Of a stretch of DNA of 64,000 nucleotides, positions 1 to 61,265 are shown one piece after another; positions within the stretch are counted from its first letter, which is position 1, and every line of letters starts with the position of its first letter. Both the position numbers and the translations under genes were made by a program. Under the pieces are notes generated by a model. That model saw only the letters and a program-made list of their open reading frames with translations, made no database searches and was not told where the DNA came from. The DNA lies in the NCBI RefSeq assembly GCF_004138205.1, contig NZ_RXNQ01000022.1, positions 248,001 through 312,000 on the forward strand. Direction: 5' to 3'. The stretch is from Pedobacter sp. SYP-B3415 (GTDB lineage: Bacteria > Bacteroidota > Bacteroidia > Sphingobacteriales > Sphingobacteriaceae).

Positions 1-386
1 TGTAAATTTTAAACGCCACTGTTTATTAACGGTTTACCTTAGCTATGGTTTACAGAGAACATTTTTTCAACATTTCCACAGATCCCGAGTTAACGAGAAA
101 GATTAAAGTTACGTTTTTTCGTCACTCAAACAGTCCCATTTTTGGGAGGGGTAAGCATCAGTTTAACAGGAGTGCAACCTCATCGACAGTTAAGATTTCT
201 TTTCTTGAGTTTCGCTAAAGCCAGATCTGTTGTCCTCCACCTCTCGGCATTAATGGCTTCTCTGCGCGTTTCCGACCTGCTAATTCCAAGCACGTATTCG
301 CGAACCTGTAGACAAATCATCCAGTAAACGGTCTCTACAGTACACAAATAGCGTAGCTGCAATTTTCACGATCGATTGCGTAAATG
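1..386. other. Left-edge stretch without a supportable gene
   Basis: AT-rich DNA with only short open frames on both strands. One minus-strand frame (180-362) has a Lys/Arg-rich C-terminus that could be the end of a decayed gene, but I recognise no family and it has no conserved neighbour. I see no RNA gene or clear repeat. Confidence 0.5.
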
Positions 387-731
387 CTATTCTGGAAATC
401 TTTGTAACCCATACTCCCGTATTCTTCTAAGTACCACTCCCCGATTTGTTTTTTTGATGAGAAACACCAGCACTCCAAATTTCGATTGAGGATCTTTGCG
501 ATATTTGGTTGTTTCTATCTTTTTTACAATCAGTACATCCTCAACCCACTCCTTTTTGACAATCGAATCTATAGGTACAGATTTATTTAGAACATATTCT
601 TTACGGTCTAATCTGATGATTTGCAAGGGAGGATTAGCTTGAGCAGTTTCAGTATAAACACTGATAGAATCGTCTTCAACTGACAGTCCAACGAAGCATA
701 AAGCCCAAAATAAAAGTATGCCATTAATCAT
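387..731 (-). CDS. Small exported protein resembling a lone TonB-plug domain
   Basis: A 114-residue protein with a hydrophobic N-terminus (about residues 3-16, GILLFWALCFVGL) that could be a signal peptide. The rest reads like a reduced version of the plug segment of SusC-type receptors. A short 'IIRLDRKEYV' stretch sits where such proteins have 'YVVDGKEV'. Then come 'VEDVLIVKKIETTKYRK' and 'FGVLVFLIKK', matching the spacing of the usual 'I.SI.VLKD..A...YG..G.NGVI.ITTK' pattern, although the glycines are partly lost. Small standalone proteins of this type are known in Bacteroidota. The gene stands alone among non-coding DNA. Function is unknown, and the family link rests on pattern resemblance only. 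Confidence 0.5.
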   Translation of the reverse strand: MINGILLFWALCFVGLSVEDDSISVYTETAQANPPLQIIRLDRKEYVLNKSVPIDSIVKKEWVEDVLIVKKIETTKYRKDPQSKFGVLVFLIKKTNRGVVLRRIREYGLQRFPE

Positions 732-1386
732 ATGATTTGGTTTTCTTATTGACTCGTGCCGCTCTTGGCTACAGCATGCCCGGTTCCGGCTTATCGAACC
801 ACACCAGCTGACAACGTCATCCTTCTAATGTCCTGGCCTAGGTCAGCCAAATGTATGAACTCAAAGTATAAATAAAATGAAAATTTTAAGACAAGTTGAA
901 AGAGCACTAACCACCTCATTAGCAAGCATTAAAATACAAAAACATGATATAGTTCTCCACTATTATCATGTATTTCGCTTGGTTGGGGCTTAGCCACTGC
1001 TGCAAAGTGCAAATTCGGATAGAAGCTTACCCTGAGAGCGACACCGCCTTAAATAATACCAATGAAAGCGTGCCAACCGCATTTTGGCCAGTCGTATCCC
1101 GATGTTTCGATTCGGTTGTTGCACGTAAATTGTAAGCTTTGCAGGCTGCTGACTATCGAAACAATTTGGTTCGTTGGTTGGATTAACCTTTTTGAAGGCA
1201 CATAGAGAATGTAAATGTATTCAATTCGTAAATCAGTATCGCGCCACCTAAATTTGGAACAGTCTATTGTTCGTAGCTGGAAAGCAGCTCTTTAAAATTA
1301 GCTTCAAAGGCTAATTCCTGATAACTAAGCCGAATCAATCAGTTTTAAGCTTGCTGTCATCACCACGGAAATTTGATTGTATTCGT
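732..1386. other. Non-coding stretch downstream of the integrase remnant
   Basis: No open frame worth calling on either strand. It lies where the missing C-terminal half of the integrase should be. I looked for the catalytic His-x-x-Arg and Tyr segments in the minus-strand frames and did not see them, so the rest of that gene is deleted rather than frameshifted. Confidence 0.5.
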
Positions 1387-2058
1387 CTAAACAATATGAT
1401 TTGACCATACCTCCTGCCGACTGGTCATGATCCACAATTCCCCATCAACGCCTATTATCAATTCTGAACGTTTTAGCTTTCGAACGTCGACATAAGCCAA
1501 TCCAGTGTAACAGCAGAACAAAAACATATCCTTAACGCCATTTAGACGGCTTACAGCAAATTGTTTGTTTGTTATGCGTGCCAGTTCCTCATTCGAGAGG
1601 GCGATACGGTTAACCCGCGTTGTTTTCGGTTTATAGTTAATATAAGAATTGACAATTAGCCATCCATTGCCAATACACAACCGAATAATCTTTCCGAAGT
1701 TCTTAAAATACTTGATGGCAGAGTTGTTTCCGCATTTGCGAATGCTCCGCAGGTAATAGTCGAAATCATTCAGCAACTCAAAGGTGATTTGTTTTACGGC
1801 CAGGTCTTTCGCTTTGTATTTCCATAGTAGGAAATCTCTAAGGTGCATCAGACAGGTCTCGTATTTTTGAAGTGTACTCTTTTCAAAATCCTGGCCAACC
1901 AAGCTACGCATACGCTTATTGTGGTCTTCAAACACGGATGTGATTGATCGCGATTTTTCGACTTTTCCTATCAGGCGATTTCTTAGTGTCTGAACTGGGA
2001 TTACCTCTACCTGCGAAAATTTCTTTCTGATTTTTCTAAAATACCCAAAAACAAAAAA
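1387..2058 (-). pseudogene. Tyrosine recombinase (phage integrase) remnant
   Basis: The fragment holds the core-binding (SAM-like) domain of a Bacteroidota tyrosine recombinase: 'DHNKRM..LVG.DF...TLQKYE', then 'DFLLWKY' and 'DFDYYLRS'. It also has the first part of the catalytic domain, with the typical 'FCCYTGLAYVDV.KL' segment and 'GELWIMTSRQ'. The frame stays open upstream of the first ATG (1935) to about 2058, ending 'RNRLIGKVEKSRSITSVFED', which matches the linker before the core-binding domain. No start codon is there. The protein stops right after 'TSRQE', so the second Arg, the HxxR motif and the Tyr nucleophile are missing. Intact relatives are about 400 residues. It cannot be active. 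It directly abuts a tRNA 3' end, the normal position for an ICE or prophage integrase. Confidence 0.85.
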
Positions 2059-2086
2059 GCCTCAACTTTTTAAAGTTAAGGCTTTT
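2055..2086 (-). terminator. Hairpin terminator after the tRNA 3' end
   Basis: Arms 2055-2069 and 2072-2086 pair over 15 bases with one mismatch. The A/T-rich outer ends give a U-run in either direction. It lies just downstream of the tRNA fragment on the minus strand, as expected for a tRNA terminator. Confidence 0.7.
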
Positions 2087-2090
2087 GTTG

Positions 2091-2112
2091 CGGAATGGAC
2101 GGGACTCGAACC
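2091..2112 (-). other. tRNA 3'-end fragment, probable att site
   Basis: Read on the minus strand, this is the last third of a tRNA: the T-loop TTCGAGT with flanking GG and CC, the 3' T-stem strand CCCGT, then the acceptor strand CCATTCC and discriminator G. The 5' T-stem is lost beyond the GG (the sequence continues with unrelated bases), so only about 22 bases are present. Such a fragment is what remains at one end of an element that integrates into a tRNA 3' end. The pattern resembles tRNA-Asp genes of Bacteroidota as I recall them, but the isotype is uncertain because the anticodon is absent. I saw no second copy in the window. Confidence 0.7.
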
Positions 2113-4225: not shown

Positions 4226-5797
4226 ATGAAATCCTCTTTAATCGCCCTATTTATATTTGCTAGTTTCCAGGGCCTATCGCAAGTGCATGACATGGGCAAT
4301 GTTGTCGTTAAAGGCACTATACCTGCATTTAAAAACAAAATCTGGTCATTTAGTAAGACAACGTTCTTTGACTCGGAAACTGAAAAAGTTGAGTTGAATA
4401 GTGCAGGGGATTTTGCAGCGAATGTTAATATTCAGGGTGAGCAAAATCTTATGTTCTCTTTGGCAGATGAAACCTTCACTATACATGTTACTCCGGGAGA
4501 CACCGTACTAGTATCAACTCATACATCCAAACAAAATGAAGGCAGGTTACACCTTACAAGTCCAAATCCAAATCTTAATCGCGATTTACAGTTTTACATG
4601 AATAGCGTGAGAAGCCTTCGTAAGTTGGACTTGGAAATTTTTAGCAAATCAATAAAGAGCTCACAAGGGAATTTTGTAGACCTCTTCAATTTGATCAACC
4701 TATCATATAATAAAAAGATGAAGATCTTATTGGATGCAAATTTCACTGACGAGGAGAAGGTCAAGCTGGGGACCGCAATCTATTTTGATTACACTGCTTT
4801 ACTAATTAGAAATGGGATGTATCCTAAATTCAACCTAGGTTCCGACTCGCTCACTCTGAGCCAAATCGGCCTGAGTCAGCCCCAGATTCTCTTTTTAAAT
4901 AAAAACTTTGTCAATGCCGGACTTCCAGAAACACTCAATACTAAGTTATTTTATCAAATTCCAGAATACCGGACATATCTATTATTAGCAGGGAGGCAAA
5001 GTCGGCCATTTAACCATACCAAAATCATCAAGGAGAAAAGCTCAATATATCAAAATGGCCAGGAGATTGAGATAAGACCGGCTTACACCAAAACTAAATT
5101 CTATTCAGAAGGCAATAATCTTCTTGATATGCCCAGAATCTGGATGGATTATTATTATGGCCTAATCAATTTTGACCTTGTGCCAATACGCGACTGGTTT
5201 ATAACATATAATCTGATCTTAGCGTATCAATATGGTTCCAATGAGGTAGCGGGCGAAGTCAACAAGGAATTTCTCAAAATTTGTCAAACAAAGGTTTACC
5301 GAGATACGCTTACGGCATTCACCACCGGGTATTTAAAATATCGCCCGGGACATCAGGCTCCAGCCATCGATTTAACTGATATAAATGGGAAAATGTTCAA
5401 TCTATCACAGGTGCGTGGGAAACTTGTTTATATAGATTTTTGGGGGGCCTCATGCGCTCCATGCATTAACGAGATAAGAGAAAGTTCTCACGCCCTCCAT
5501 AGCAAATACGCCGCTAAAGACATCGTTTTCATAAACATCTGTGTAGACTCTAGCCCTTCAGTTTGGAAACAAAATGTTGAAAAATATAAATTGAAAGGAA
5601 TCAATTTGCTAGCAGAAGGTTGGACAAATAGCATTGTCTGCGAGTCTTACAAGGTTGACGCATTGCCACATTATGTGCTGCTAGACCGCAACGGGAACTT
5701 CATTCAATATCGTTCACAACGTCCCAGTGAGCTTTTGAAAACTTCACCGAATGTTATCGATCTAGCGCTTTCTGAAGCTAGCTTTAACGCAAACTGA
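4226..5797 (+). CDS. TlpA-like thioredoxin-domain protein, exported
   Basis: A 523-residue protein with an N-terminal signal peptide (about 18 residues, ending 'FQGLSQ'). A DUF4369-like beta-rich N-terminal half is followed by a TlpA/AhpC-type thioredoxin fold from about residue 375. The C-terminal domain starts 'GHQAPAIDLTDINGK' and carries the redox motif C410-A-P-C413 in 'DFWGASCAPC'. The cis-Pro region is 'KVDALPHYVLLD'. It should act in the periplasm as a disulfide reductase or thiol carrier. It is 8 bases after the glycosyltransferase and 2 bases before the signal peptidase, so co-transcription is likely. A Cys-containing exported protein two genes on is a plausible client (inference). 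Confidence 0.8.
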   Translation: MKSSLIALFIFASFQGLSQVHDMGNVVVKGTIPAFKNKIWSFSKTTFFDSETEKVELNSAGDFAANVNIQGEQNLMFSLADETFTIHVTPGDTVLVSTHTSKQNEGRLHLTSPNPNLNRDLQFYMNSVRSLRKLDLEIFSKSIKSSQGNFVDLFNLINLSYNKKMKILLDANFTDEEKVKLGTAIYFDYTALLIRNGMYPKFNLGSDSLTLSQIGLSQPQILFLNKNFVNAGLPETLNTKLFYQIPEYRTYLLLAGRQSRPFNHTKIIKEKSSIYQNGQEIEIRPAYTKTKFYSEGNNLLDMPRIWMDYYYGLINFDLVPIRDWFITYNLILAYQYGSNEVAGEVNKEFLKICQTKVYRDTLTAFTTGYLKYRPGHQAPAIDLTDINGKMFNLSQVRGKLVYIDFWGASCAPCINEIRESSHALHSKYAAKDIVFINICVDSSPSVWKQNVEKYKLKGINLLAEGWTNSIVCESYKVDALPHYVLLDRNGNFIQYRSQRPSELLKTSPNVIDLALSEASFNAN

Positions 5798-5799
5798 CA

Positions 5800-6828
5800 A
5801 TGCGGCACTTATTTAATAAAATCAAAAGTAAGTATAAGATATATTGTTTCCTTGCAATCCTTTCGGCTTTCTTTTTAAAGATTTTTGTCTTCGAATTATT
5901 TATCGTGTCGTCTGAAAGCATGAATGAAACACTTTTGATTGGTGACATTGTATTAGTGGACAAAATAAGCACCGGGCTTAAAACACCCAGGTCGACCAAT
6001 GACATTCCATTTGTTTCCGCAGTTCTATACTTGATGGGGAAGAAAGTATCTTCCAAACCAGACGTGTGGCCCCATTTTACGTCAGGTCCATTGAGCATCA
6101 CTAGAAACGACATAGTGGTGCTCTCCCACCCAGTTAAGGGTGAAACTTTAATAAAGCGATGTATTGCGCTACCAGGTGATACTTTTTCTGTTTATGATGG
6201 CCGAGTCAAGATTAACGGTTTGCAGACACCTCAGAATAGCTTGGTTCAACACTTATATAGAATGAAATGTATTAAAAAATTTGAAGACAGCATTGATTTC
6301 ATGAAAGAATACAACCTGAAACCGTCAAATATATTTCAATTCAATAGCCAATCTATCATGCTAACCCTCTCAGCGGACAAATTGCAAAAATTACATGACA
6401 AATATCCAGAGTTAATCCTAGAAAGGGTAGTTGCAAGTACAGAAACTAAAGACGAACATTTATTCCCTTACTTCTCTAACACTAATAAAGGTTTCAATAG
6501 AGAATTTTATGGTCCGGTAATCGTACCAAGACGTGGACAAGTCATTAATTTAAGTATGATGAATATTGTCTTTTTTAAGCGAATACTTGAAAAATATGAA
6601 AAGGTAGCGGTTGAAACGTCTGCAAATGCCGTACTGTTGAACGGTCGACCTGCCAAAACTTATCGTTTCAAAAAGAACTATTACTTTGTTCTCGGAGACA
6701 ATCGGTACAGATCAGTAGATTCACGTTACTGGGGTTATGTACCTGAGGAGCTATTGATAGGAACTGCAAGATTCTTACTTATAAGAAAAGCACGTCCACA
6801 TATTAATTCACTAGATAGAGATCAATAG
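5800..6828 (+). CDS. lepB-like: Signal peptidase I (S26 family)
   Basis: A 342-residue membrane-anchored serine protease of the S26 family with one N-terminal membrane segment (about residues 14-33). The nucleophile is Ser40 in 'SSESMNETLLIGD' and the general base is Lys119 in 'TLIKRCIALPGD'. The C-terminal box E reads 'LGDNRYRSVDSRYWGYVPEELLIG'. An insertion of about 140 residues separates the last two boxes, as in other Bacteroidota enzymes. The usual Pro two residues after the Ser-Met pair (SM.PTL) is Glu here. A dedicated copy beside a small exported protein suggests processing of that product (inference); housekeeping copies usually sit elsewhere. Confidence 0.85.
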   Translation: MRHLFNKIKSKYKIYCFLAILSAFFLKIFVFELFIVSSESMNETLLIGDIVLVDKISTGLKTPRSTNDIPFVSAVLYLMGKKVSSKPDVWPHFTSGPLSITRNDIVVLSHPVKGETLIKRCIALPGDTFSVYDGRVKINGLQTPQNSLVQHLYRMKCIKKFEDSIDFMKEYNLKPSNIFQFNSQSIMLTLSADKLQKLHDKYPELILERVVASTETKDEHLFPYFSNTNKGFNREFYGPVIVPRRGQVINLSMMNIVFFKRILEKYEKVAVETSANAVLLNGRPAKTYRFKKNYYFVLGDNRYRSVDSRYWGYVPEELLIGTARFLLIRKARPHINSLDRDQ

Positions 6829-7007
6829 CCCTTTTCCCGAATAAATTTAAATGCTCTTAACTACCTCCAAGTGTGCAACGCAAACCAATTTCCGTGTTTG
6901 CGAATATTTTAGCTTCCTATGATGCACACAAACGAATGCAAGCAAAATGGCATTTAACATATTTTTAAACTCATCAACTTCAGTCATACATATTTAAACT
7001 CAAAAAC
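6829..7007. other. Intergenic gap before the exported peptide gene
   Basis: A 179-base AT-rich gap, the largest inside the plus-strand run, so the exported protein may have its own promoter. I found no clean TAnnTTTG box. Confidence 0.4.
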
Positions 7008-7499
7008 ATGAAAAAAACCATTTTAAACTTAACGCTCGCAGCGTGCTTTGCATTCATATTACTTTTTAATATAAGTATAGTGGACGAGAACAATTCCAAC
7101 TCACTAAGAATGAGCTTTGCTAAAGAGGCATTTGCAGATGAAACCAATCCAGGTAGTGACCCTGGAGATGACGGTGGAGGCGGTGGTGACAACACTGATA
7201 TGACAGATTGGGACTCTGGCGGACCATGGGCGGGAGGCGCACGACGGGTAGCCATCGCCATTTTCCATTGTTCTGGAACAGCCGTTAGAAAGGTAACTAC
7301 CTATAAAAATGCTCAAGGTCAAATTACTGGTACTGTGGAGTTTTTCCGAGGATCCGTAACAGGAAGCGCAGGTGCAAATTGGACAAATTCAACTACAGTA
7401 GAGTCCACAGAAAGGTGGACTGCGGATCTCCAGGGTAACTCATGCCCGTCAGGATCGACGACCTGTACGCCTGTGAATCCTTGCACCGAGGCAATGTAA
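7008..7499 (+). CDS. Small exported Gly- and Cys-containing protein, possible cargo peptide
   Basis: A 163-residue protein with a Lys-led hydrophobic signal (residues 1-24), then a short amphipathic stretch 'SLRMSFAKEAFADE' and a Gly/Asp-rich linker. The mature part is rich in Ser and Thr. Four Cys are visible: one in 'AIFHCSG' and three near the C-terminus in 'NSCPSGSTTCTPVNPC'. The leader resembles the layout of NVEALA-type exported peptides of Bacteroidota (short signal, then a region ending in 'EALA', here 'EAFA'), which often lie next to six-bladed propeller lipoproteins, as here. This is resemblance, not proof. It is a candidate substrate of the neighbouring peptidase, thiol proteins and export genes. 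I see no D-S/T-hydrophobic O-glycosylation motif of the Bacteroides type. Confidence 0.6.
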   Translation: MKKTILNLTLAACFAFILLFNISIVDENNSNSLRMSFAKEAFADETNPGSDPGDDGGGGGDNTDMTDWDSGGPWAGGARRVAIAIFHCSGTAVRKVTTYKNAQGQITGTVEFFRGSVTGSAGANWTNSTTVESTERWTADLQGNSCPSGSTTCTPVNPCTEAM

Positions 7500-7566
7500 C
7501 ATACATTTAAGACTGAGTTGATGAGTTTATAAACTTTACGATAACTTAATTGAAACAATACTCTAA

Positions 7567-8760
7567 ATGAAAACAATTTATATCTTGTTTTTTGCTGTAG
7601 CTCTGGTCTCCTGTGGACGATCTTCCCGCACAAACATTAATACAATACAAACCGAAAAAGGAGATGTGAAACAATTCACTATTGATGCTGACGAGGTTTT
7701 TGAAATTGAAAAAGTTCTGGAAGAGCCGACTTTTGTCAAGCTTGAAACCAAACCAGAATGTCTAATCGGAACGATCGATAAACTAATTTGCACTGACAGT
7801 TTAATCGTCGTTGTCGACAGAAGAGTCGCTCAAGCTGTTTTTGTATTCGATTCTGCTGGCCGTTTCCTTGGGAAAATTGCTGAGAAAGGGAAAGGACCGG
7901 GAGAATTTACTGAGATATGGGATGTTAATATCAATGAGGAAAGCCGGCACATAGAACTACTTGATGAGAAGCTAAAAAAAATCAACAAATACACGTACGA
8001 ATGTAGATATGTTGATTACAAGAGAATGCCATTCATTTTCACAGGTTATCAACCACTCGATAGTAGCACCTTTGCTTATTACACAAACAAATCACCAAAT
8101 GCAAGACAACCCATAATTAACAATAACCTACTTGTTACTGCGAAATCTAACAATAAAATCCTCGGAAAAGCCTTTCCACTCACACAAAATGAAAAGAATA
8201 ACTCGATGAGTTTCGAAACATTTAATGCGCCACTATGGAAATATGGAAAATCTGTTTTCTTCAATCCGCGGTTTAGTGACACTATTTTCCGGGTAACACC
8301 TAACAAATTATTTGCCGAATACATTGTTAAGATGAGGGGTATGATTTCCTCGGCAAACTGGGAAAAAATGGACAATGAGCGATTTCAAAAACTGCTCGAA
8401 ACACATTCTTATCTTAACGGAACATTTATTGATTTACAGGATCACTCCTATGTTAATGTAACAACGCCAAAAGGCAGAGTTCATGGCTTTTATCTGAAAT
8501 CTTCCGGAAAAGTAATCTCTGGTCGTAGTTTTTCAACAATTAACCCCTTTTACAACTTTTTCGAGATCCCGTTGGCTGCAAAATCCAACAACAGTTTTGT
8601 CGTTGTTCAAACTGCACAACAAATTCTTGATGCGAAAGCTTTGATAAACATGTCTATAAAAACGAAATCACCGAAAATTCAGGAAGAATTAAAAGTGTTC
8701 TCAAAGCTGTCAAAGGATGATAATCCAATACTAGTGTTTTTTAAAGCCAAGAAAGTATAG
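7567..8760 (+). CDS. Six-bladed beta-propeller lipoprotein
   Basis: A 397-residue protein with a lipoprotein signal: 'FFAVALVSCG' places the lipidated Cys at residue 16. The body matches the six-bladed propeller (DUF4934-like) family: 'FVKLETKPECLIGTIDKL', 'DSLIVVVDRRVAQAVFVFDSAGRFLGKIAEKGKGPGEF', then 'HIELLDEKLKKINKY'. These proteins sit on the periplasmic or outer face of a membrane. In many Bacteroidota they neighbour small exported peptides and redoxin-like proteins, the arrangement seen here. The biochemical role of the family is not established. It lies 2 bases before the next gene. Confidence 0.8.
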   Translation: MKTIYILFFAVALVSCGRSSRTNINTIQTEKGDVKQFTIDADEVFEIEKVLEEPTFVKLETKPECLIGTIDKLICTDSLIVVVDRRVAQAVFVFDSAGRFLGKIAEKGKGPGEFTEIWDVNINEESRHIELLDEKLKKINKYTYECRYVDYKRMPFIFTGYQPLDSSTFAYYTNKSPNARQPIINNNLLVTAKSNNKILGKAFPLTQNEKNNSMSFETFNAPLWKYGKSVFFNPRFSDTIFRVTPNKLFAEYIVKMRGMISSANWEKMDNERFQKLLETHSYLNGTFIDLQDHSYVNVTTPKGRVHGFYLKSSGKVISGRSFSTINPFYNFFEIPLAAKSNNSFVVVQTAQQILDAKALINMSIKTKSPKIQEELKVFSKLSKDDNPILVFFKAKKV

Positions 8761-8762
8761 TA

Positions 8763-9398
8763 ATGATCAACAATAAATTTTTCCCAAGAAGCATCACGAT
8801 CATTGCTATTACCATGATAGGCTTTAACTTATATTTATTACACGAGGTACGGAATTCACGCCCCGCCTCAGTCGAAACCGTTAAACAATCCGAAAATTAT
8901 CAAAGTTTGTATGCTGGGTTGGCTAGTGTTAAAGCAAGCGAACTCCAAGTCGAAGGTAATAGGTTACAAAATGTGAAATTGATCGGAGCCTACGGTGAAA
9001 CAACTTTATTCAATCAACTTGGATCAGTGTCGAATATCATATTTCGAATATCGGAAGTCAATTGTTCTACGTGTGTTCATCAGCAACTAGCTTTGTTGAA
9101 GCGCTATAAAGATTCATTGGGATTAAAGAATATTTTGATTATCGGCGCTTATAGTGAATTCCGAAAGCTTAAAATAGCAGTCTCAAGCACTGGCATTCCT
9201 GATGAATCTATTTTCATCGCACCAAAAAATTCCTTCGACAATTTATTCGTCGAAAACCAAAATGTTCCTTACTATTTAGTTGTAGATAAACAAAAATTAA
9301 TCCTAAGGGCGTTCGTGCCGCTGGTTGAACAAGTTCATATATCGCAGCTTTTTTTATCAAGTTTTTTAAGAAAGTACATTGGCAATAGAAATGAGTAG
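8763..9398 (+). CDS. Membrane-anchored thioredoxin-like protein
   Basis: A 211-residue protein with an N-terminal membrane anchor (about residues 8-28) and a thioredoxin-like body. The motif 'SEVNCSTCVHQQL' has a CxxC pair after a beta strand ('NIIFRI'). It is followed by 'NILIIGAYS' and 'VPYYLVVDKQKLILRAF', equivalent to the cis-Pro and last strands of the fold. It is shorter than TlpA proteins and resembles the small redoxins found next to propeller lipoproteins. Its end overlaps the next start by 8 bases (ATGAGTAG), suggesting translational coupling to the adaptor gene. Confidence 0.65.
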   Translation: MINNKFFPRSITIIAITMIGFNLYLLHEVRNSRPASVETVKQSENYQSLYAGLASVKASELQVEGNRLQNVKLIGAYGETTLFNQLGSVSNIIFRISEVNCSTCVHQQLALLKRYKDSLGLKNILIIGAYSEFRKLKIAVSSTGIPDESIFIAPKNSFDNLFVENQNVPYYLVVDKQKLILRAFVPLVEQVHISQLFLSSFLRKYIGNRNE

Positions 9399-10455
9399 TT
9401 CCTGCCTTAAAAAATTCGTCATTGGTTTTTGCTTAACAATAGAAATTAGCTGTGTTTCAAGAACAGAAGAACTAAATGACATGCCTGAAGTCCCAAAACT
9501 GGTCATAAAACCAGTAGCAGTTTCTACGATTGTTGCGAGAAAAGGAACTTTCGCTTCAGAGATAATTACCAATGGCAAAGTATATGCGAGCCATCTAGCA
9601 GATGTTCGTCCAGAGATAAGCGAGAAAATCAATCACATCTATGTCCGTAATGGTGACCTGGTCAGAAAAAACCAAATTTTAGCGTCACTGGATGATTCGG
9701 AACTCAAGATAAAATTGCAACGAGCAGTTTATGCGCTCGACAAATCATACATCGACTTGGAAGATCGATTGATCGACTTTGGATATCGATTAAAAGATAC
9801 GGCAGGGATACCAAAGTCAATTCTTCGCATTGCCAAGGTAAAAAGCGGGCATAATGAAGCATTATATGATTTTTTAGATATCAAGCGGGAAATCGATAAG
9901 ACTAAAATTGTCGCCCCAATAGATGGTCGGGTTATGAATCTTAATTTTCAAACTCAAAATTACATTGAACGCTCTGCTAAATTTTGTTCCGTAATTTCCG
10001 ATGGAGATATGTTAGTCGACTTCAACGTTCTGCAAGGAGAATATCCTCTCATCTCTAAGGGGACTATGATTGAAGTAGCACCGTTTGGAACAGCGAAATT
10101 TCATAGGGGTAAGATTTCTGATATCAACCCAATGATAGATAATGCAGGTCTGATTCGGATCACTGGAATTATTGCAAACAGTGGGCAGTTTCTAAACGGA
10201 ATGGCCGTATCCATCATTTTGAAAAAAAGGATAGAAGATAAATTTGTAGTTCCAAAGTCGGCAATTGTTAAACGGCAGAATCGCGAGCTGGTATTTCTGA
10301 AACATTCTGACAAAGCAAAATGGCAATATGTTGTCACAGGTTTGCAAAATGAAAATGAAGTAACCATTGAATCAGGTGTTAGGTCCGGAGATACTATTAT
10401 AACCGGGAATAATCTAACTCTAGTACACGATTCAAAGGTTAAAACTACTGAGTAG
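9391..10455 (+). CDS. RND efflux periplasmic adaptor (MFP/HlyD family)
   Basis: A membrane-fusion protein of about 354 residues linking an RND permease to TolC. It has the split lipoyl/biotinyl-like domain ('NHIYVRNGDLVRKNQILASLDDSELK' in parts, and 'KTKIVAPIDGRVMNLNF'), a short hairpin between the halves, and beta-barrel and proximal domains ('FVVPKSAIVKRQNRELVFL', 'SGVRSGDTIITGNNL'). The N-terminus has a hydrophobic segment ending 'EISC', a possible lipobox, so it is probably a lipoprotein. The upstream TTG at 9379 would extend the frame; I prefer the ATG at 9391. It lies 7 bases before the first RND gene. Confidence 0.85.
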   Translation: MSSSCLKKFVIGFCLTIEISCVSRTEELNDMPEVPKLVIKPVAVSTIVARKGTFASEIITNGKVYASHLADVRPEISEKINHIYVRNGDLVRKNQILASLDDSELKIKLQRAVYALDKSYIDLEDRLIDFGYRLKDTAGIPKSILRIAKVKSGHNEALYDFLDIKREIDKTKIVAPIDGRVMNLNFQTQNYIERSAKFCSVISDGDMLVDFNVLQGEYPLISKGTMIEVAPFGTAKFHRGKISDINPMIDNAGLIRITGIIANSGQFLNGMAVSIILKKRIEDKFVVPKSAIVKRQNRELVFLKHSDKAKWQYVVTGLQNENEVTIESGVRSGDTIITGNNLTLVHDSKVKTTE

Positions 10456-10462
10456 GTCTACC

Positions 10463-13400
10463 ATGAGAACTAACCGAACATTTACGCCGTTTGCCATAAT
10501 CACAATCGCGACTTTACTATCTCTGATAGGCCTAATTTTCATAGCGGATTTATCAATCAGATCAACAAATGAAGAAACTGAAGATCAACTTTCAATACAG
10601 TTCAGGTGTAGAGATCGTCCTGCTTTTTCCGTGGAGCGTGACATAACTAGCAAAATAGAAAGTCTTCTTTCAAAAGTTGAAGGCATTTCACATATTCGGT
10701 CTGTTTCTCAAAAGGGCATGGGGTACATCCAAAGTCAGTTGGATAACCCAAAGAATACTGGCAAAATTACAAATGAAGTTTCTCTATTGCTCCGACAGAT
10801 AAGAGGCGATTTTCCTGATGATCTATATTATGAGATTAGTAGTAGCAGCTTAAATATAGATCCTGTCCCAATTATTACATACATGATTATCGGTGATGAA
10901 CAGACCTCCCAAAGATTCGTCTCGGAAAACTTAAATAACTATCTAACAAAAATTGATGGCATCGAGAAAACCGTTCTAGAAGGAGTTTCGGAAAAATCCA
11001 TAAAAGTAACCTTCAAGGATGCTGTGATACATAAACTCGGTCTGTCCAGAAACGACTTTATAGATCCTTTGCTGGAGACTATCAGTGACATGCATGTTTC
11101 TAAAATAGAAAGTTCTCATCAAAAAAATGAAGTTTCGTATATCATTCAAACACCCCAAGTTACCGCTTTTTCGCAATTTTCAGAACTACCAATTAAAAAA
11201 ATCGCAGGTAAAATACTAAAATTGGTGGATGTTGCAGAAATTTCTATTGAAAAATCGCGCCCTCCTATCATGTACAGTGTTAATGGTAACAGATTTTTCA
11301 AGCTCAATATAACTGCAAAACAAGGTGCAAATCATCTGAGGATGGTATCCGAAATTCAACGTAAAGTCTCAACGATGAATAGCACGGATACTGGAGTTGA
11401 AATTAGACTACTAAAAGACAACACCTTGCAGCTTCGAAGATCATTTGAGAATTCGGCTTACAAGTTATGTGTCTCAATAACAATACTTGTCATCTTCGTC
11501 TTTGTATCTACTCGGAATTGGAAAGTGCTCGCGCTTGTAGTTGTATCTTTAGTATCAAATTTATTAACCACCTGTTTGATCTGTCGATTTCTTGATGTAG
11601 TTTTCTACCCAGACTCTATTGCTTGTTTAGCAATCACTTCAGGAGTCTTTGCGGATAACTGCATAATTCAAATATATAACCGACAAGAAAGACGCAAGCG
11701 CGGACTAAATTCGATTGTAATATCAGCATTAATCATATTCATTGCGATTCTGGCAGGCACCAAGTTTACTTATCTAAAAGGAAATGATAATCTTCGCGAC
11801 ATTGGACTACTTTTAATAATAAATTTAGGAATTTGCTTAATTGTGCTTGTTTCCCTAGTTCCTGCACTAAAATCTAAACTTCTCATAGAGGAACGACGTG
11901 AAAAATTGCAAAGGCCTTCCCACCGCTTTTCTATTCCAGTTCTGGCATTTTACTTTAAGATTGTCTCAGTTTGCTCAAAACACACCAGATTAATAACTTT
12001 CATTATCCTGATGGTTATGGGACTTCCGCTCTTTCTTTTACCAAAAGAGATATTATCGAAATCAACTGCTGCACAATTTTATAACTCTACGATGGGAAAT
12101 AGGAGTATTCGGCCATGGTTTGACAGACTATTTGGAGGGGTGATTACTTCTTTTGCTGAGAAACGGTCGCGGCCCGTGGTTCAATATGAACCTGATCAAT
12201 CTGAATTGCTACTGAAGATTGTACTCCCTTCTTCAAGCCCAGATTCCTTATTAGCCGAAATAGTCATGAAGTTCGAAAACCAACTTCAGGCATTCGGACA
12301 AAGAATTCAGTATCTTACTGAGGTAAACGGTTCGGAGACAGCGACTATAAAAGTTACATTTCCGAGGAACAGCAATCTAAAGATTCCTCAAATTCTCAAG
12401 GAAGATCTAGAGAGCCTAGCAGGAGAGACCGGATTAGCAGAGTTTACATTACAAGGTTATGGGCGTGCTTTTAATAACAAAGTAGTCGATGATCGCATAA
12501 AGTCTACAATAACTCTCCTAGGATACCGATATGCCTCAACGGTCAACTACAGTTTGGAAATAATAGATAGTTTGAAGAATTATGAACGTATCACGGCTAT
12601 AACTCTGGGAAACGACATTTCCAACCAAATGATTGACGCCTCTCCACAATTAGGAATACGAATTGCTGGGCGCGACAGATTATTAATTGACGAACTCGAA
12701 GGGTTTGAGATTGAGCGCATTTTGAAGAATTTACCCGGGACGGACCAGTATTTAGGAAACTCTTATGATGAACAAAAGCTAACTCCAGTGGTCGCTCGTT
12801 CCAGTGAGAGTCAAATGGATCTCTGGAGATTAGCAGAAAAACCGTTTCGAATAGACTCGTCCCGGTATATAAAATTGGCCCCCTATATAAATGTTGATAC
12901 AGTTGAAAGTGCAACCATGATCGAAAGATATGATCAACAGTATCAGCTATCTATCAATTATCATTATGTAGGAGATCAATATCGAGCGCATGATATCAAG
13001 CAAAACATCATAAATGTGATGAATGAAAAGATGCCAATAGGCTATAAAATAGACGATCTCAATCAAAACTTAGCCACGAACGAAGCTCGGAAATATGCGA
13101 TGACCTTAATTAGTATATTGCTTGTTACGATCTTAATCTCGATAATTACTCTTGAAAGTTTTCGCAGAGCCATCCTGATACTAGTTGTGATTGTACCAGC
13201 TTTAATTGGAGCTTTTATTTCGCAGCTTTTGTTCAATCTTACTGCTGCTGACGGCAGCATTGCCGGGGTCCTTTTTTTGTGTGGTATAAGTGCAAATGCC
13301 TCACTCTATATCCTATCTAACTTCAGAAGCAAGATGACCGATGTTAGCAAGACATCTTTGGGAAGATTCAAGTCAGCAACTATCCGCCATGTCTTTAAAA

Positions 13401-13594
13401 AATTAGGACCTATCTCTTTAGGATCATTGACCCTCTTACTTGGAATCCTTCCTTTCGTGATTACCAAAACATTTGGCGATTTTTGGCATTCCTTTTCGGT
13501 ATCGGTAATTGGAGGTATATTGTTTCATCAACTAGCAATTTCATTCTTATTGCCTAGTTACTTATTAGCTCCATATTCTTTAAGACGGCGATGA
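10463..13594 (+). CDS. RND permease subunit A, divergent
   Basis: A 1043-residue RND-family permease with the usual plan: one N-terminal helix, a large periplasmic domain, a helix bundle from about residue 330, a second periplasmic domain, and a second bundle from about residue 870. The helix-4 proton-relay region reads 'GVFADNCIIQIYN' (Asp near residue 398) instead of the common 'VDDAIV', and the helix-10 equivalent is 'LCGISANASLYILSNF'. It is more diverged than the following permease and lacks the HAE-type N-terminal 'PITPLPDVD' signature. Two permeases in tandem with one adaptor recall heteromultimeric pumps of the MdtBC type. Start is ATG; the end overlaps the next gene by 4 bases (ATGA). 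Confidence 0.8.
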   Translation: MRTNRTFTPFAIITIATLLSLIGLIFIADLSIRSTNEETEDQLSIQFRCRDRPAFSVERDITSKIESLLSKVEGISHIRSVSQKGMGYIQSQLDNPKNTGKITNEVSLLLRQIRGDFPDDLYYEISSSSLNIDPVPIITYMIIGDEQTSQRFVSENLNNYLTKIDGIEKTVLEGVSEKSIKVTFKDAVIHKLGLSRNDFIDPLLETISDMHVSKIESSHQKNEVSYIIQTPQVTAFSQFSELPIKKIAGKILKLVDVAEISIEKSRPPIMYSVNGNRFFKLNITAKQGANHLRMVSEIQRKVSTMNSTDTGVEIRLLKDNTLQLRRSFENSAYKLCVSITILVIFVFVSTRNWKVLALVVVSLVSNLLTTCLICRFLDVVFYPDSIACLAITSGVFADNCIIQIYNRQERRKRGLNSIVISALIIFIAILAGTKFTYLKGNDNLRDIGLLLIINLGICLIVLVSLVPALKSKLLIEERREKLQRPSHRFSIPVLAFYFKIVSVCSKHTRLITFIILMVMGLPLFLLPKEILSKSTAAQFYNSTMGNRSIRPWFDRLFGGVITSFAEKRSRPVVQYEPDQSELLLKIVLPSSSPDSLLAEIVMKFENQLQAFGQRIQYLTEVNGSETATIKVTFPRNSNLKIPQILKEDLESLAGETGLAEFTLQGYGRAFNNKVVDDRIKSTITLLGYRYASTVNYSLEIIDSLKNYERITAITLGNDISNQMIDASPQLGIRIAGRDRLLIDELEGFEIERILKNLPGTDQYLGNSYDEQKLTPVVARSSESQMDLWRLAEKPFRIDSSRYIKLAPYINVDTVESATMIERYDQQYQLSINYHYVGDQYRAHDIKQNIINVMNEKMPIGYKIDDLNQNLATNEARKYAMTLISILLVTILISIITLESFRRAILILVVIVPALIGAFISQLLFNLTAADGSIAGVLFLCGISANASLYILSNFRSKMTDVSKTSLGRFKSATIRHVFKKLGPISLGSLTLLLGILPFVITKTFGDFWHSFSVSVIGGILFHQLAISFLLPSYLLAPYSLRRR

Positions 13595-16500
13595 TTTCAT
13601 TTTTTCTTAAGCGACCAATTGGGGTTCTTGTCTCTGCCTTTGGGGTGTTGTTAATAGGGGTTCTATCTATAATTAGCACCCCGATTACACCACTTCCTGA
13701 TGTCGATATTCCACGAATTCAGATCAAACTGGTACATAGAGGTTACTCAGCGTCAGAGATGGAAAGAAATATCACTGGTTTCGCACGTAGATCACTTACT
13801 CAATTATCAGGTCTAAAGAAACTCAATGCCAAATCTTACAGCGGTTTCGCAATTGTGACGTTGGATTATCAGTTCGGAACAAAAATCGACGTAGCATTTG
13901 TGAATCTGAACGATCGGCTTGATCGCTTACTAAATGAACTGCCCGTGAAAATTGAGCGTCCAATAGTGTCAAAATCTAACCTTTCAGATATCCCTGTCTT
14001 CTATTTGAACGTATTTCTAAAAAAAAGTAATGTCGATAGCATTGAGCTTTTTCAACTGAGTGACTTTGCACAGAAAGTTATAAAGAGACGACTTGAACAA
14101 AGGCCAGAAATTGCGTATGCTGATATAAGCGGACTTGCAGAAAAACATATTATTATCCAACCGAAAGTCAATGTAACTCGTGCTCTGTCTTTAGACGAAG
14201 AAGATTTCAGAAAGTTGATGAAGCAATCCACCGCATCACTCGGTAACCTGGATGTAGCGGATGGAGAGTTCACATATCGTTTGGAGATGCTAAGTCAACG
14301 CATCGCTTCGATAAGTGAAGTAAGAAAAATACCGATAAAAGTTAACGGAACCATCTTTCATCTTTCGGATTTAGCGACAGTAGATGAAGAAATCACGAAT
14401 AGAAGTACAGCACTGTTTGGATTGGACCGATGTATTACAATGGCTATTATAAAGCAGCCAGATGCAAGTTTAACCGATCTTCGAAAAGCTACCACAATAT
14501 TGATAGATGAATTCAAAAAAGATTATCCAACGCTACATTTCGAGCAGACCGAGGATCAGAGTTCTTTATTGGAGTTTGCGATAAACAACTTACAACAAGA
14601 TTTGGTATTAGGGTCACTGTTCTCTTTTATAATTTTGGCATTGTTCCTAGGAGATGCAAGAATTCCCCTACTTATAGCTATCGTAATTCCTGCTTGTGTG
14701 ATTGTCTGTTTACTTCTATTTTACGTCTTAGATTTGTCAGTCAACATTATTTCGCTTGCTGGTTTAGTTTTAGCAGTTGGCCTCATGGTTGATAATGCAG
14801 TGATAGTAATAGATAACATAACATACTATGTTGATAAGGGCTATCCTGTTACAAAAGCTTGCGCTATTGGTACAGAAGAAGTGTTTCGACCTATATTGGC
14901 TTCGGCTTTCACAACAACGTCTGTCTTTGTTCCATTGGTTTATATGAGCGGGATTTCTGGTGCACTTTTTTATGACCAAGCAATAGCAATAGCTGCTGGA
15001 TTATTTTCATCCATACTAATTTCATCTACTGTGTTGCCGGTTTGTTATAGTCTGATTTACCGACGCAGAGTAAAGCCGACCAAAAAATTTGTCGTTAACA
15101 AAATCAACTTTCGCCGAATCGAACGGATCTACGACATAGGATTTAATTGGGTTTTTAACAATAAACAATGGGTTGGAGCGATAGTATTGACACTCGTGGC
15201 CATTAACGTGTTGCTGTTTATTAGTTTGAAAAAAGAAAATATTCCCAGAATGGGTGAAAATGAATGTGTGATCATAATAGATTGGAATGTAAATGTTTCG
15301 GATTCGAAAAACACGAAGTCAGTCAAACTCATTGTAAATAAGTTAAAAAGTAGCGTTGATATCGTCACAGCAATGGTGGGCCAACAAACCTTCTTAATAG
15401 CGAATAAAGAAGAGTTAACAAGTTCACAGGCTAGAATTTATGTTCACGGAAAGAATAGAGCAAATATTCAAGAAATATCCTCGAAAATCAAGCTCATGTT
15501 CGCTAAGAGTTTTCCGAAAGCGACCATACGTATTGAGCCGCAGAAGAATCTATTCCAACATATATTTGACTCCTCCATCCCACCCCTAGTAGTCAAAATT
15601 TCTTCCAATATAAATGCTGACGTTTTGCCTGACATTCGACAGGTTAAAAAAATTAAAACTGATCTCGAAAAGAAATTTCCAAACATAGAAATACATGAGC
15701 AAGGCAATGATGAAATAGCAGAATTAACACTTCGGAAAGATAAAATGATGTTGCTTGATGTATCAAAAGATGATATTTATAAAGCCCTTTCAATATCTGC
15801 GGGAATTTACCGGCTCGGAAGTTTTGAAGACGGAGATGAATCTTTTCCAGTTTTTTTAGGTTCGACAATACGAACTCCGAATTGGATCGCAAAGTCGATG
15901 GTAAAAAATAGTCGGGGACAAGAGTATCCACTAGACTATTTTATATACTTATCCCAAGGGAGTCAACCGAGAGCTATTTACGGTGATGAAGCAAGCGTTT
16001 TTACGCATCTTGATGTATTCGTTCAAAACGTAAAACCAGTGGCTGAGCATTTATCTAAGATTAATGAATCAGCAAACGAAAATAAAGTTACTCTCGAAGG
16101 GTCGTATTTCGACAATCTACTTCTTACAAAGGAAATGCTCTATGTTTTGTTCGCCTCGATCACCCTACTTTACTTTATCCTTGCAGCTCAATTCGAGTCG
16201 CTAATACAACCTATAATTGTTCTGTTCGAGATCCCTATAAGCATGAGTGGAGCACTAATATTTTTGTTCGTGACTGGATCAACAATAAACTTGCTTTCCC
16301 TAATTGGTTTAATAGTAATGTGCGGCATAATAATTAATGATTCGATATTGAAAATAGACGCGATAAATCAACTAATGAGAGTTGATAAAGTGCCGTTGCT
16401 GGAGGCAATCCACATCGCGGGTCGAAGACGTCTTAAATCGATTACCATGACAAGCTTAATCACAATTTTCTCCGTTGTACCTTTTCTATTTGGTGATGAT

Positions 16501-16647
16501 CTAAGCTCAATACTTCAGCGACCACTTTCGGCATCCTTAATTGGCGGAATGTTAATAGGCACACCAATAAGCCTATATTTTATCCCCCTTGTATATTGGT
16601 CTTGGTACAAATCCCGTAGTCTTAATCTAAAATCAACTCCTCAATAG
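13591..16647 (+). CDS. RND permease subunit B
   Basis: A 1018-residue RND permease close to the HAE-1 group. The N-terminus 'MISFFLKRPIGVLV' is followed by 'TPITPLPDVDIPRIQI'. The helix-4 motif is 'GLVLAVGLMVDNAVIVIDNI' in the correct place (Asp about 401), and the helix-10 region is 'MCGIIINDSILKIDAI'. The motif 'AGRRRLKSITMTSLITIFSVVPFLFG' ends the second bundle as in functional pumps. It overlaps the previous permease by 4 bases and the convergent TolC gene by 26 bases at the 3' end. It probably forms one tripartite exporter with the other permease, the adaptor and TolC. The substrate is unknown; the flanking peptide, propeller and redoxin genes hint at something other than drugs (inference). 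Confidence 0.85.
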   Translation: MISFFLKRPIGVLVSAFGVLLIGVLSIISTPITPLPDVDIPRIQIKLVHRGYSASEMERNITGFARRSLTQLSGLKKLNAKSYSGFAIVTLDYQFGTKIDVAFVNLNDRLDRLLNELPVKIERPIVSKSNLSDIPVFYLNVFLKKSNVDSIELFQLSDFAQKVIKRRLEQRPEIAYADISGLAEKHIIIQPKVNVTRALSLDEEDFRKLMKQSTASLGNLDVADGEFTYRLEMLSQRIASISEVRKIPIKVNGTIFHLSDLATVDEEITNRSTALFGLDRCITMAIIKQPDASLTDLRKATTILIDEFKKDYPTLHFEQTEDQSSLLEFAINNLQQDLVLGSLFSFIILALFLGDARIPLLIAIVIPACVIVCLLLFYVLDLSVNIISLAGLVLAVGLMVDNAVIVIDNITYYVDKGYPVTKACAIGTEEVFRPILASAFTTTSVFVPLVYMSGISGALFYDQAIAIAAGLFSSILISSTVLPVCYSLIYRRRVKPTKKFVVNKINFRRIERIYDIGFNWVFNNKQWVGAIVLTLVAINVLLFISLKKENIPRMGENECVIIIDWNVNVSDSKNTKSVKLIVNKLKSSVDIVTAMVGQQTFLIANKEELTSSQARIYVHGKNRANIQEISSKIKLMFAKSFPKATIRIEPQKNLFQHIFDSSIPPLVVKISSNINADVLPDIRQVKKIKTDLEKKFPNIEIHEQGNDEIAELTLRKDKMMLLDVSKDDIYKALSISAGIYRLGSFEDGDESFPVFLGSTIRTPNWIAKSMVKNSRGQEYPLDYFIYLSQGSQPRAIYGDEASVFTHLDVFVQNVKPVAEHLSKINESANENKVTLEGSYFDNLLLTKEMLYVLFASITLLYFILAAQFESLIQPIIVLFEIPISMSGALIFLFVTGSTINLLSLIGLIVMCGIIINDSILKIDAINQLMRVDKVPLLEAIHIAGRRRLKSITMTSLITIFSVVPFLFGDDLSSILQRPLSASLIGGMLIGTPISLYFIPLVYWSWYKSRSLNLKSTPQ

Positions 16648-20664: not shown

Positions 20665-21654
20665 TTAAAGGCCTCTGCTAACTTGCCTTTGCTGTATATG
20701 ATCTTTGCCTGCTTGTTTTTTCTGTGAATTGTTGATTTCAGATTTCAAAAACTGCTCTCTCTTTTGAGGTTTCCCGTCCAGGGAATAAAAGTTGACCTGC
20801 GAATACCGCGGCACGGCCTCAATCTTTAGCACCTCTCGCTCACCATCTCTTTCTACGCTAACGGTTGCCCGGTCTCCATTTTTTAAAGAGGCCTCTATCT
20901 TTCCATACAATTTCGGATCGTCCAACTCTTTTATGTTAAACCGTTCGAGCACTTGCTTCAAGTCGAAACCATAAGCCGGATCATGATACTGATTGATCGC
21001 AAAATTTTTAAATCGATCTTTCGGTCCTTCTAAATCAAGTCTTGTCCAGGCTTTGTAAGGTTCGCCTGCCACATTTAAAAGATCAGCGCGGTAGACTGCC
21101 CGGCCTTCCATTAAATTGACAGCTTGTGATGCCGTGAACCCCTTGCCCCTATCCAGCCAAAAAGTCTGAGGCGTAGGCGGATTTCTAAAGGTTCGCACAA
21201 AGTCTTTTGCCACATAGTTGATCTTTCCATTTTCCATCCCTGCTAGTAGCTCCCGCGTATCTGGCTTTTCGGGATTTCCCTTCAAAAGCTCGGCGTTTGT
21301 TTTTCTTAGGCGGAAATTTTCTATTGCTTCACTCACCGAAGTATATACGCGCATCTGATTGGGCTCTCCCCTTTTTTCAGCCGGGGTGACGACCATATAC
21401 CGCTGGTTGTTTTCAAGTCGCGTACCTTCATTCATGGTCACCTCAAACTTGTTTAGGTAATAGTAATCAGATTGACCGGATTGCTTGAAATATATATTCA
21501 TTTCGGCCTGGCCCCGCAGTCCCTCGCGTTTGTCATGGAGCACAAAATTTGGATGATCTTCGCGCATGAATTGCTCCATTTTCTTAGCGAGTTCATCTGA
21601 AAACCCAAGGATATTCATTTCCTGCCGAAGGCTTTCAAGGTTGTTTAAATTCAT
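20665..21654 (-). CDS. DUF3945/DUF4099-like mobile-element protein
   Basis: A 329-residue soluble protein with no signal peptide. The middle holds 'RGKGFTASQAVNLMEGRAVYRADLLNVAGEPYKAW', the repeat type found in DUF3945 proteins of Bacteroidota conjugative elements. The N-terminal part ('YYYLNKFEVTMN') resembles the DUF4099-like region. The C-terminal 100 residues are charged ('SVERDGEREVLKIEAVPRYSQVNFYS'). These proteins travel with conjugation or mobilisation genes, but their role is unknown. It sits where TraN is normally found but shows none of TraN's features (no signal peptide). Confidence 0.7.
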   Translation of the reverse strand: MNLNNLESLRQEMNILGFSDELAKKMEQFMREDHPNFVLHDKREGLRGQAEMNIYFKQSGQSDYYYLNKFEVTMNEGTRLENNQRYMVVTPAEKRGEPNQMRVYTSVSEAIENFRLRKTNAELLKGNPEKPDTRELLAGMENGKINYVAKDFVRTFRNPPTPQTFWLDRGKGFTASQAVNLMEGRAVYRADLLNVAGEPYKAWTRLDLEGPKDRFKNFAINQYHDPAYGFDLKQVLERFNIKELDDPKLYGKIEASLKNGDRATVSVERDGEREVLKIEAVPRYSQVNFYSLDGKPQKREQFLKSEINNSQKKQAGKDHIQQRQVSRGL

Positions 21655-21691
21655 AATTTTTGAAAATTAATTGACGAATAATGTAATTGGA

Positions 21692-22747
21692 CTATTTATC
21701 AACGCGAAGCAGCACCTTTATTCCCGCCTTAAGCCGGATCTTTTGCTGTCGGATTTTCTTAGAAGCCAGGCTCCTGGCCGCATCGATTCCCGCACCAGCG
21801 AGTTCGGTGGCAATTGAAGATTCAATCGGAGAAAACTGGATCGCCCGCAAGGCGTCTTCGGCTCCCAGAGATGCTTGCTCCCCTACTATTGCCTCAGGAG
21901 TCAATATCCCCTCGATTCCATCCATGCCATACACAGTCCAGTCAACGGGAATAATGGAGTTTCCCATTCTAACAGTCTTTATCTTTAAATGCATTCGCTG
22001 ATTGCTCAAAGCGGCAGTGGAGTAGACCAGGTGTCCCTTAGGGATAAGGATGTCCTTGGCACGAATGGTATCTGAAAGAGTCAGTTCCACTGTTCCTCCC
22101 GGGCGGACTAGTTGTTTTGAAGTAATCTGAGCAGGAATGGCGGCAAAGAGATTCTCTACAGGCGCGGAACGTTCCGCTGTTGCGGCAGGTCTGCGCGGAT
22201 TTTGCAGTTCAAGGATTTTATCCATGAGCTGGTCAAGCTGGCTAATTTCAGGATCCGCCTTAGACTCATTGGTTTCGTTTACCAGCTGCTCAAGCCGTTT
22301 AGACCCTGAAGATTCACTGGTTGGCAGATTCTGCGCAGCCAAATTCGGTGGCAGTTGCTGGGCGCTTGCGATCTCACGGTTAATCTGATCGATGCGGGAG
22401 TGGATTTTTAGGGTTTGATCCTCCGGTCGAGCTCCGGAAAAGCCAAACTTTTCAGCCATCGTAAATAGGTCGGTGGAGTCATGATCACCGCTCTGATTAC
22501 CATCCCGCTCATAAAACTCAAGTTTATTCTTTGCCGAATCCTTCGGAAAGGCTGGCTCTGGGAGCTTTAGGTTTAAACTTGTTGACGAGGGAGTTGCAGG
22601 CCCCGTGCCGCCGCCCAAAGCGTAGAAGCCGAGCGCTAAAAATGGCATAATTAGCACCGGCAGGTAAATCAAGAAAATAAGTTTGCGCCTTTGCTCAGAA
22701 GCCGAGTTTGTCGAATTTGACTGTTTAAGTTCCATTGATGTTTCCAT
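21692..22747 (-). CDS. traM: Conjugative transposon protein TraM
   Basis: A 351-residue protein. The N-terminal cytoplasmic start is followed by one membrane helix ('LIFLIYLPVLIMPFLALGFYAL'), a long Pro/Ser-rich linker with coiled-coil tendency, and the conserved C-terminal domain: 'GGTVELTLSDTIRAKDILIPKGHLVYSTAALSNQRM.LKI', 'SIIPVDWTVYGMDGIEGI', 'RLKAGIKVLLR'. This is the VirB10-like bridge of Bacteroidota type IV secretion. The order TraM, TraL-position gene, TraK, TraJ matches CTnDOT-type operons. The usual TraN and TraO after it are not present. Confidence 0.93.
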   Translation of the reverse strand: METSMELKQSNSTNSASEQRRKLIFLIYLPVLIMPFLALGFYALGGGTGPATPSSTSLNLKLPEPAFPKDSAKNKLEFYERDGNQSGDHDSTDLFTMAEKFGFSGARPEDQTLKIHSRIDQINREIASAQQLPPNLAAQNLPTSESSGSKRLEQLVNETNESKADPEISQLDQLMDKILELQNPRRPAATAERSAPVENLFAAIPAQITSKQLVRPGGTVELTLSDTIRAKDILIPKGHLVYSTAALSNQRMHLKIKTVRMGNSIIPVDWTVYGMDGIEGILTPEAIVGEQASLGAEDALRAIQFSPIESSIATELAGAGIDAARSLASKKIRQQKIRLKAGIKVLLRVDK

Positions 22748-22750
22748 ATT

Positions 22751-22969
22751 CTATAAATTAAAATCGAGGATAAGGTGTAGACAGTAAACTGCCCATAGCA
22801 GGCCAGCTAAGCCAAATGCTGTCGCTACAACTGGCCCGGAACGCCTGGTCATTGACCGGTTGATCACAGCAGCCAGTTGCTTTTCCATGGTTACTACTTT
22901 CATTTTGAGCGCCTGAATCTGCTGGGCAAGGTTTGCAGGCAGATGTTCATTTTTGCTTGATGGTTTCAT
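22751..22969 (-). CDS. Small membrane protein at the TraL position
   Basis: About 72 residues: a charged N-terminus with a short helical heptad stretch ('LAQQIQALKMKVVTMEKQL') and one C-terminal membrane helix ('VVATAFGLAGLLWAVYCLHLIL'). Its position between TraK and TraM matches TraL, although such proteins are too short and variable for a firm family call. I chose the internal ATG at 22969, which overlaps the TraK end by 23 bases; the ATG at 23002 is the alternative. It is probably an inner-membrane part of the transfer channel. Confidence 0.65.
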   Translation of the reverse strand: MKPSSKNEHLPANLAQQIQALKMKVVTMEKQLAAVINRSMTRRSGPVVATAFGLAGLLWAVYCLHLILDFNL

Positions 22970-23585: not shown

Positions 23586-23594
23586 GTCCTGGGA

Positions 23595-26723: not shown

Positions 26724-26853
26724 GATTTTCTTGATTTTTGTTGTCAATAGGCAAAGCGTTGCCCTGCCATCCGCGGATCGGTTATTTTTCATTGTCGTTT
26801 CTTTATGTGTAATTAATACTGCTGGTTATCGTGCGCAGCACTTGCGCTTCAGA

Positions 26854-29334: not shown

Positions 29335-29660
29335 ATCGCGCGGCGTTTACTTAGTGAAAGAAAAGTTTGTCTGGAAGAGAGCGTGATTGCTTTGGGCAGA
29401 TTGCCTCTGGCCAGAAATTTCATTAATCCTTGCGGTCCAAATTTTTGCGACAAGAAGCGGCACAGGTAAATGAGTGCCATTGTTAAGGCGACGATCATGG
29501 GGAAAAGCATACCTAGCGGCACATCTAGCAAGTAAAGCGAGACGAACAGTAATAGCAACACCAATAAACCCACGGCTAAAATGCCGACGTAATAGCCCTT
29601 GAGTCCTTTGACTACAATGGGCCTGGATACCCCATGATTGATTTGGTACACGCTAGCCAT
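29331..29660 (-). CDS. traF: Conjugative transposon protein TraF (DUF4133)
   Basis: About 109 residues. It starts 'MASVYQINHGVSRPIVVKGLKGYYV', the conserved TraF opening (intact relatives have 'INKGI.RPIEF.GLK.QYI'), followed by two membrane helices and a basic C-terminus. I used the internal ATG at 29660 rather than the longer frame to 29729, because homology begins there and it lies just after TraE. This is a VirB3-like inner-membrane protein that partners the VirB4 ATPase, whose gene follows directly. Confidence 0.9.
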   Translation of the reverse strand: MASVYQINHGVSRPIVVKGLKGYYVGILAVGLLVLLLLFVSLYLLDVPLGMLFPMIVALTMALIYLCRFLSQKFGPQGLMKFLARGNLPKAITLSSRQTFLSLSKRRAI

Positions 29661-29662
29661 CT

Positions 29663-30495: not shown

Positions 30496-30586
30496 AACAT
30501 CGAAATTTTCTCAGCCACATGGCTGATTGAACAAAAATCTAGTTTCTTCAAGGCCTGGTTTCAGAGCTTGGAAATGTTTGGTTTTA

Positions 30587-61249: not shown

Positions 61250-61265
61250 ATAAAAAATTTTTCAG

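Follow-up and report, generated by a model that had tools for sequence, protein, structure and literature searches.

A displaced tRNA-Asp 3′ end and terminator at the left boundary of a putative 79-kb conjugative element in Pedobacter

A tRNA end, a hairpin and an integrase remnant

The stretch of DNA analysed here (the window) comprises 64,000 nucleotides, positions 248001-312000 of contig C12 (373,240 bases) in the draft genome of Pedobacter sp. SYP-B3415 (4.47 Mb, 37 contigs). Near its left end, positions 2090-2112 read in minus-strand sense reproduce exactly the final 23 nucleotides of a tRNA-Asp(GTC) gene, matching C12:329025-329047. The copy consists of the end of the 5′ strand of the T-stem, the T-loop, the 3′ strand of the T-stem, the acceptor strand, the discriminator and one further base. 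An earlier, sequence-only reading of this DNA had correctly recognised a tRNA 3′ fragment here, and had given its length as 22 rather than 23 nucleotides. When 371,000 of the 373,240 bases of the contig were searched with up to 4 mismatches allowed, the 23-mer was found twice, in the fragment and in the tRNA-Asp gene, and the same two copies were the only ones in the entire assembly at up to 2 mismatches. The fragment is therefore not a chance match. No Rfam family matched anywhere in the window at gathering thresholds.

To the left of the fragment, at about positions 2055-2086 of the minus strand, lies a hairpin with a folding energy of −16.7 kcal/mol (z = −4.2). None of 200 shuffled sequences reached equal stability, and the earlier description of this hairpin as terminator-like is borne out.

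Past the hairpin, positions 1408-2022 (C12:249408-250022, minus strand) hold a remnant of an integrase gene, corresponding to residues ~83-287 of the 405-aa integrase of the element described below. The two are 87-88% identical in amino acid sequence over these residues, and 600 nucleotides of the remnant match at 90%, so that the broken integrase noted earlier at this position is real. The remnant lacks the N-terminal arm-binding and C-terminal catalytic parts and retains only the SAM-like domain. It extends beyond the listed open reading frame (1387-1935) to about 2015-2022, and its codon 83 sits ~68 nucleotides from the tRNA fragment. Codon comparison with the intact gene, in which the first few remnant codons fall outside clear homology, revealed no internal stop, 33 synonymous differences and 27 non-synonymous differences. 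Other integrases of the genus reached at most 62% identity, and those of the named collection at most 66%.

The intact tRNA-Asp and the gene content of the ICE

ARAGORN found a single tRNA gene on the contig, and none inside the window. This tRNA-Asp gene lies on the minus strand at C12:329025-329099 (window-equivalent positions 81025-81099) and adjoins prfA. A distance of 78,935 bp separates the starts of the two 23-nucleotide repeats. The intact tRNA is accompanied by a full open reading frame, the start codon of which is 246 bp from the tRNA, for a 405-aa tyrosine integrase that has an arm-binding, a SAM-like and a catalytic domain. The sequence-only reading had placed an intact tRNA and its integrase past the right-hand edge of the window, and had named a matching tRNA on the left as the finding that would speak against it; the intact gene was found on the right, and not on the left.

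The interval thus has an intact site-specific integrase at one end and an exact 23-nucleotide direct repeat (attL/attR), present in two copies in the genome, at both ends. Between the repeats are type IV secretion genes, a relaxase and a coupling protein. A conjugation and regulation module at 20665-31540 (minus strand; NCBIfam and Pfam models) encodes TraM, TraK, TraJ, TraG, DUF4133/DUF4134 proteins and RteC. A mobilisation module at 59231-62766 (minus strand; NCBIfam), with genes of the MobA/B/C type, encodes the coupling protein MobC, the relaxase MobB and a BfmA/BtgA-like mobilisation protein. TraG (1027 bits against a cut-off of 262), TraJ, TraK, MobB and MobC all scored over their NCBIfam cut-offs; TraM was below its NCBIfam cut-off (147.7 against 172.45) and above that of Pfam. 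The TraG gene inside the interval is the only one in the genome.

We consider it very probable (roughly 0.9) that the interval is a 78,935-bp ICE of the CTnDOT type, which its tyrosine integrase inserted into the 3′ end of the tRNA-Asp gene beside prfA. Positions 2113-64000 of the window would be the left 62 kb of this 78.9-kb ICE, which is bounded by the 23-nucleotide repeats and continues to window-equivalent position 81024 (C12:329024). In common with CTnDOT-type elements, it carries TraG, TraJ, TraK, TraM, RteC and MobB/MobC-type genes, as judged by Bacteroides conjugative-transposon models, and a tyrosine integrase with SAM-like and catalytic domains. It differs from CTnDOT, the target of which is not known to be a tRNA end, in targeting the 3′ end of tRNA-Asp with 23 nucleotides of identity, and in carrying Dnd and PARIS-like cargo.

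The Dnd phosphorothioation genes make up the right arm of the ICE (L005:86-12688, window-equivalent positions 64086-76688). Those recognised encode DndC, DndD, DndE, DndF, DndG and DndH, with DndD scoring best as PbeC. Consecutive genes for DUF262/Orf5-like, AriB-like and AriA-like proteins at 47052-51112 (minus strand; PADLOC) give the ICE a PARIS-like set of defence genes. The boundary described here exactly delimits a putatively mobile defence island, an ICE with a DNA phosphorothioation system. Efflux and signal-peptidase genes are also present in the ICE: near its left end, window positions 4226-16647 contain, in one run, genes for a thioredoxin-fold protein, a signal peptidase, a beta-propeller protein, an HlyD-type protein and two RND transporters.

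Just inside the left end are three GTGAG repeats on the minus strand, at 2155-2159, 2164-2168 and 2175-2179 (47, 56 and 67 nucleotides from the core, respectively), an arrangement reached in 0 of 500 shuffles. Eight of the 17 further left ends compared share a GTGAG pair at exactly 67 and 56 nucleotides from the core. In one further left end, L300, the anchor of which is at least one base off, the pair was at 69 and 58, and in 8 of the 17 no GTGAG occurred within 100 nucleotides. At the integrase end, GTGAG occurs 102, 113 and 139 nucleotides from the tRNA, an arrangement reached in 5 of 2000 shuffles. In 4 of 6 relatives compared, the motif has similar positions near the integrase. We take the repeats at both ends of the ICE to be putative arm-type integrase sites. 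Five left ends at the same tRNA-Asp (L247, L248, L256, L264 and L265) are without GTGAG and have another motif in common, approximately TTCGGGA in most of them; these are perhaps the arm sites of another integrase subfamily.

Uninterrupted sites and integrase targets in related genomes

The hairpin beside the window fragment also occurs downstream of tRNA-Asp in several relatives. The tRNA end together with the hairpin was used as a pattern, with up to 3 mismatches allowed, against 145 genomes of the genus. The pattern matched 35 genomes including our own, the latter at 0 mismatches, and 30 loci among the matches listed were inspected, namely our own and 29 in relatives. The hairpin follows an intact tRNA-Asp in 23 of these 29 relative loci, with prfA adjoining in 21 of the 23, and in 6 of the 29 a displaced fragment is followed by the same terminator. 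When our own flanks were joined across the ICE and compared with the 23 intact loci, 105-109 of 119 positions matched. Since the hairpin follows intact tRNA-Asp in relatives and the flanks match, we conclude that it is the host terminator, displaced along with the fragment, and that the ICE lies between the tRNA and it. The element had been predicted to run rightward from the fragment, with an empty site in relatives as the check and the lack of an insertion to the right of 2112 as the contrary outcome. The empty sites in relatives are without the DNA to the right of 2112, as predicted. An AMP-ligase protein in the left flank was also tried as a marker of the empty site and was rejected, its many distant paralogues making it uninformative.

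As far as can be read from the sequence, then, the fragment is the left end of a putative 79-kb conjugative element situated between tRNA-Asp and its own terminator. The incoming element would have brought a copy of the 23-nucleotide end, leaving the tRNA whole on the integrase side, to the right and outside the window. The terminator for the regenerated tRNA-Asp would be supplied by the element, and the host's own 23-nucleotide end and terminator would have been pushed to the left end, at window positions 2055-2112. The layout is observed directly; the act of integration is deduced from the way in which tRNA-targeting tyrosine integrases work. The ICE is a known sort of element and its insertion an ordinary event, the junctions of which can be checked against uninterrupted sites in related species. 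As in tRNA-targeting ICEs and genomic islands generally, the tRNA is regenerated at the integrase side and a 3′ fragment lies at the far end. Unlike in such islands generally, the host terminator can here be recognised and traced to the far end, and its position identifies the chromosomal flank. The host terminator is thus a landmark that distinguishes the chromosomal from the element side, and simple insertion from tandem accretion.

To examine the targets of the integrase family, 80 relatives of the integrase were fetched and a tRNA was sought within 1.5 kb upstream. The tRNA was tRNA-Asp in 34 cases, tRNA-Lys in 11, tRNA-Ser in 4 and tRNA-Cys in 1; in 24 there was none within 1.5 kb, and 6 lay too close to a contig end. 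Among the 29 relatives with at least 59% identity, 24 lie 247-255 bp behind an intact tRNA-Asp, 3 lie behind a tRNA-Asp fragment and the other 2 lie too close to the end of a contig; no other tRNA was found beside any of them. The 23-mer was searched for in our own and 22 other genomes, and in 9 of the 22 relatives an intact tRNA and a similarly oriented fragment share a contig, spanning ~19 to 42 kb. G181 was left out of this count, both of its 23-mer copies being intact tRNAs. The Mucilaginibacter tRNA-Asp elements (for example L137, M. roseus, and L139, M. aquaedulcis) have integrases 65-66% identical to ours, 251 bp behind tRNA-Asp, and several of these genomes have the same 23-nucleotide fragment at the other end; these elements span 19-42 kb, against 79 kb for the ICE described here. 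The tRNA-Asp beside prfA is thus a recurrent target in the genus. No paper on ICEs at tRNA-Asp in this group came up in a literature search at the level of titles, though this says little about whether such papers exist. A further integrase of this family in our own genome, ~50% identical and broken into two reading frames, lies behind tRNA-Lys(TTT) near the end of a contig (G000:C23:1212-2812, L310:1212-2812). It is another decayed insertion.

Origin of the integrase remnant

Because the hairpin between the remnant and the ICE is the host terminator, the remnant is outside the ICE, on the chromosomal side. When window positions 1-1400 were compared with the fetched loci, from which eight were excluded, mostly for overlapping this stretch, they matched only their own DNA. 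Comparison of the open reading frames downstream of tRNA-Asp in 20 relatives with the contig did not reveal a syntenic left flank, and our own pckA is on contig C6, not C12. Since the genes on the left differ from those of relatives and pckA is on another contig, the left chromosome is rearranged.

Among the matches listed, a second tRNA-Asp lies beyond this terminator in 12 of the 29 relative loci. An intact tRNA-Asp stands ~270 bp past the displaced fragment and terminator in G011 and G001. G060 and G102 have the order tRNA-terminator-tRNA-integrase, and so does G119, in which the integrase is decayed. From the positions in G060 and G102, codon 83 would be expected 793 or 759 nucleotides from the end of the first tRNA. 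As it is found at 68, about 0.7 kb including a second tRNA-Asp would be missing here. On balance, we favour the reading that the remnant derives from a sister element once inserted at a second, adjoining tRNA-Asp gene that has since been deleted. The sister integrase would have come from an element in a second tRNA-Asp ~270 bp downstream; that tRNA, with the beginning of its integrase, would have gone in a deletion of ~0.7 kb, and a separate second loss would have taken the rest of the sister element. No second tRNA-Asp was found in our own genome, and no sister tra genes for an older element were found elsewhere in it. Two tRNA-Asp genes are present in 9 of 20 relatives compared. In some relatives a second tRNA-Asp is missing from the fetched stretch, and the data do not force the conclusion that one was lost here.

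It is a tentative possibility, at a little under even odds, that one integrase family struck both tandem tRNA-Asp genes, that decay of the first element deleted one of them, and that the remaining tRNA-Asp now depends on the terminator of the ICE. If so, turnover of ICEs would make tRNA genes less redundant and leave an essential gene bound up with a mobile element.

The absence of synteny between the left flank and the relatives compared would also suit an ICE insertion as described with a remnant placed by a rearrangement unrelated to any second tRNA-Asp, such as an inversion or the transfer of a piece of integrase. The orientation and order of the remnant, which fit an element in the second tRNA-Asp as in G060, G102 and G119, argue against this, and we regard it as rather unlikely.

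The sequence-only reading had assigned the remnant to an older element at the same tRNA, the fragment and hairpin being the right end of that element (tandem accretion). Such arrays do exist: in G175, G177 and G182 an internal fragment has a palindromic terminator of the element type behind it and, ~250 bp on, a full integrase, on the same contig as the integrase behind the intact tRNA. The remnant is also a close sister of the ICE integrase. The hairpin of our fragment, however, is the host terminator, unlike those of the internal fragments in these arrays, and no third copy of the 23-mer that could mark the far end of an older element was found in the contig (up to 4 mismatches) or the assembly (up to 2). 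As neither an element-type terminator nor a full integrase lies behind the fragment, accretion at our own tRNA-Asp is improbable. That the fragment is a duplicated or misassembled tRNA end bounding no element, as the shortness of the repeat (23 nucleotides) and the 37 contigs of the draft might suggest, is barely credible against the full integrase and tra and mob genes between the repeats, the conserved end repeats and the 6 of 29 other loci in which a displaced fragment likewise stands beside this terminator; repeats as short as 23 nucleotides usually do not mislead assemblers.

Two related proteins, 33% identical over 275 amino acids, are encoded on the two sides of the boundary, one inside the ICE (window positions 63189-64061) and the other in the left flank (C12:241922-242716). 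Both resemble GIY-YIG-type proteins.
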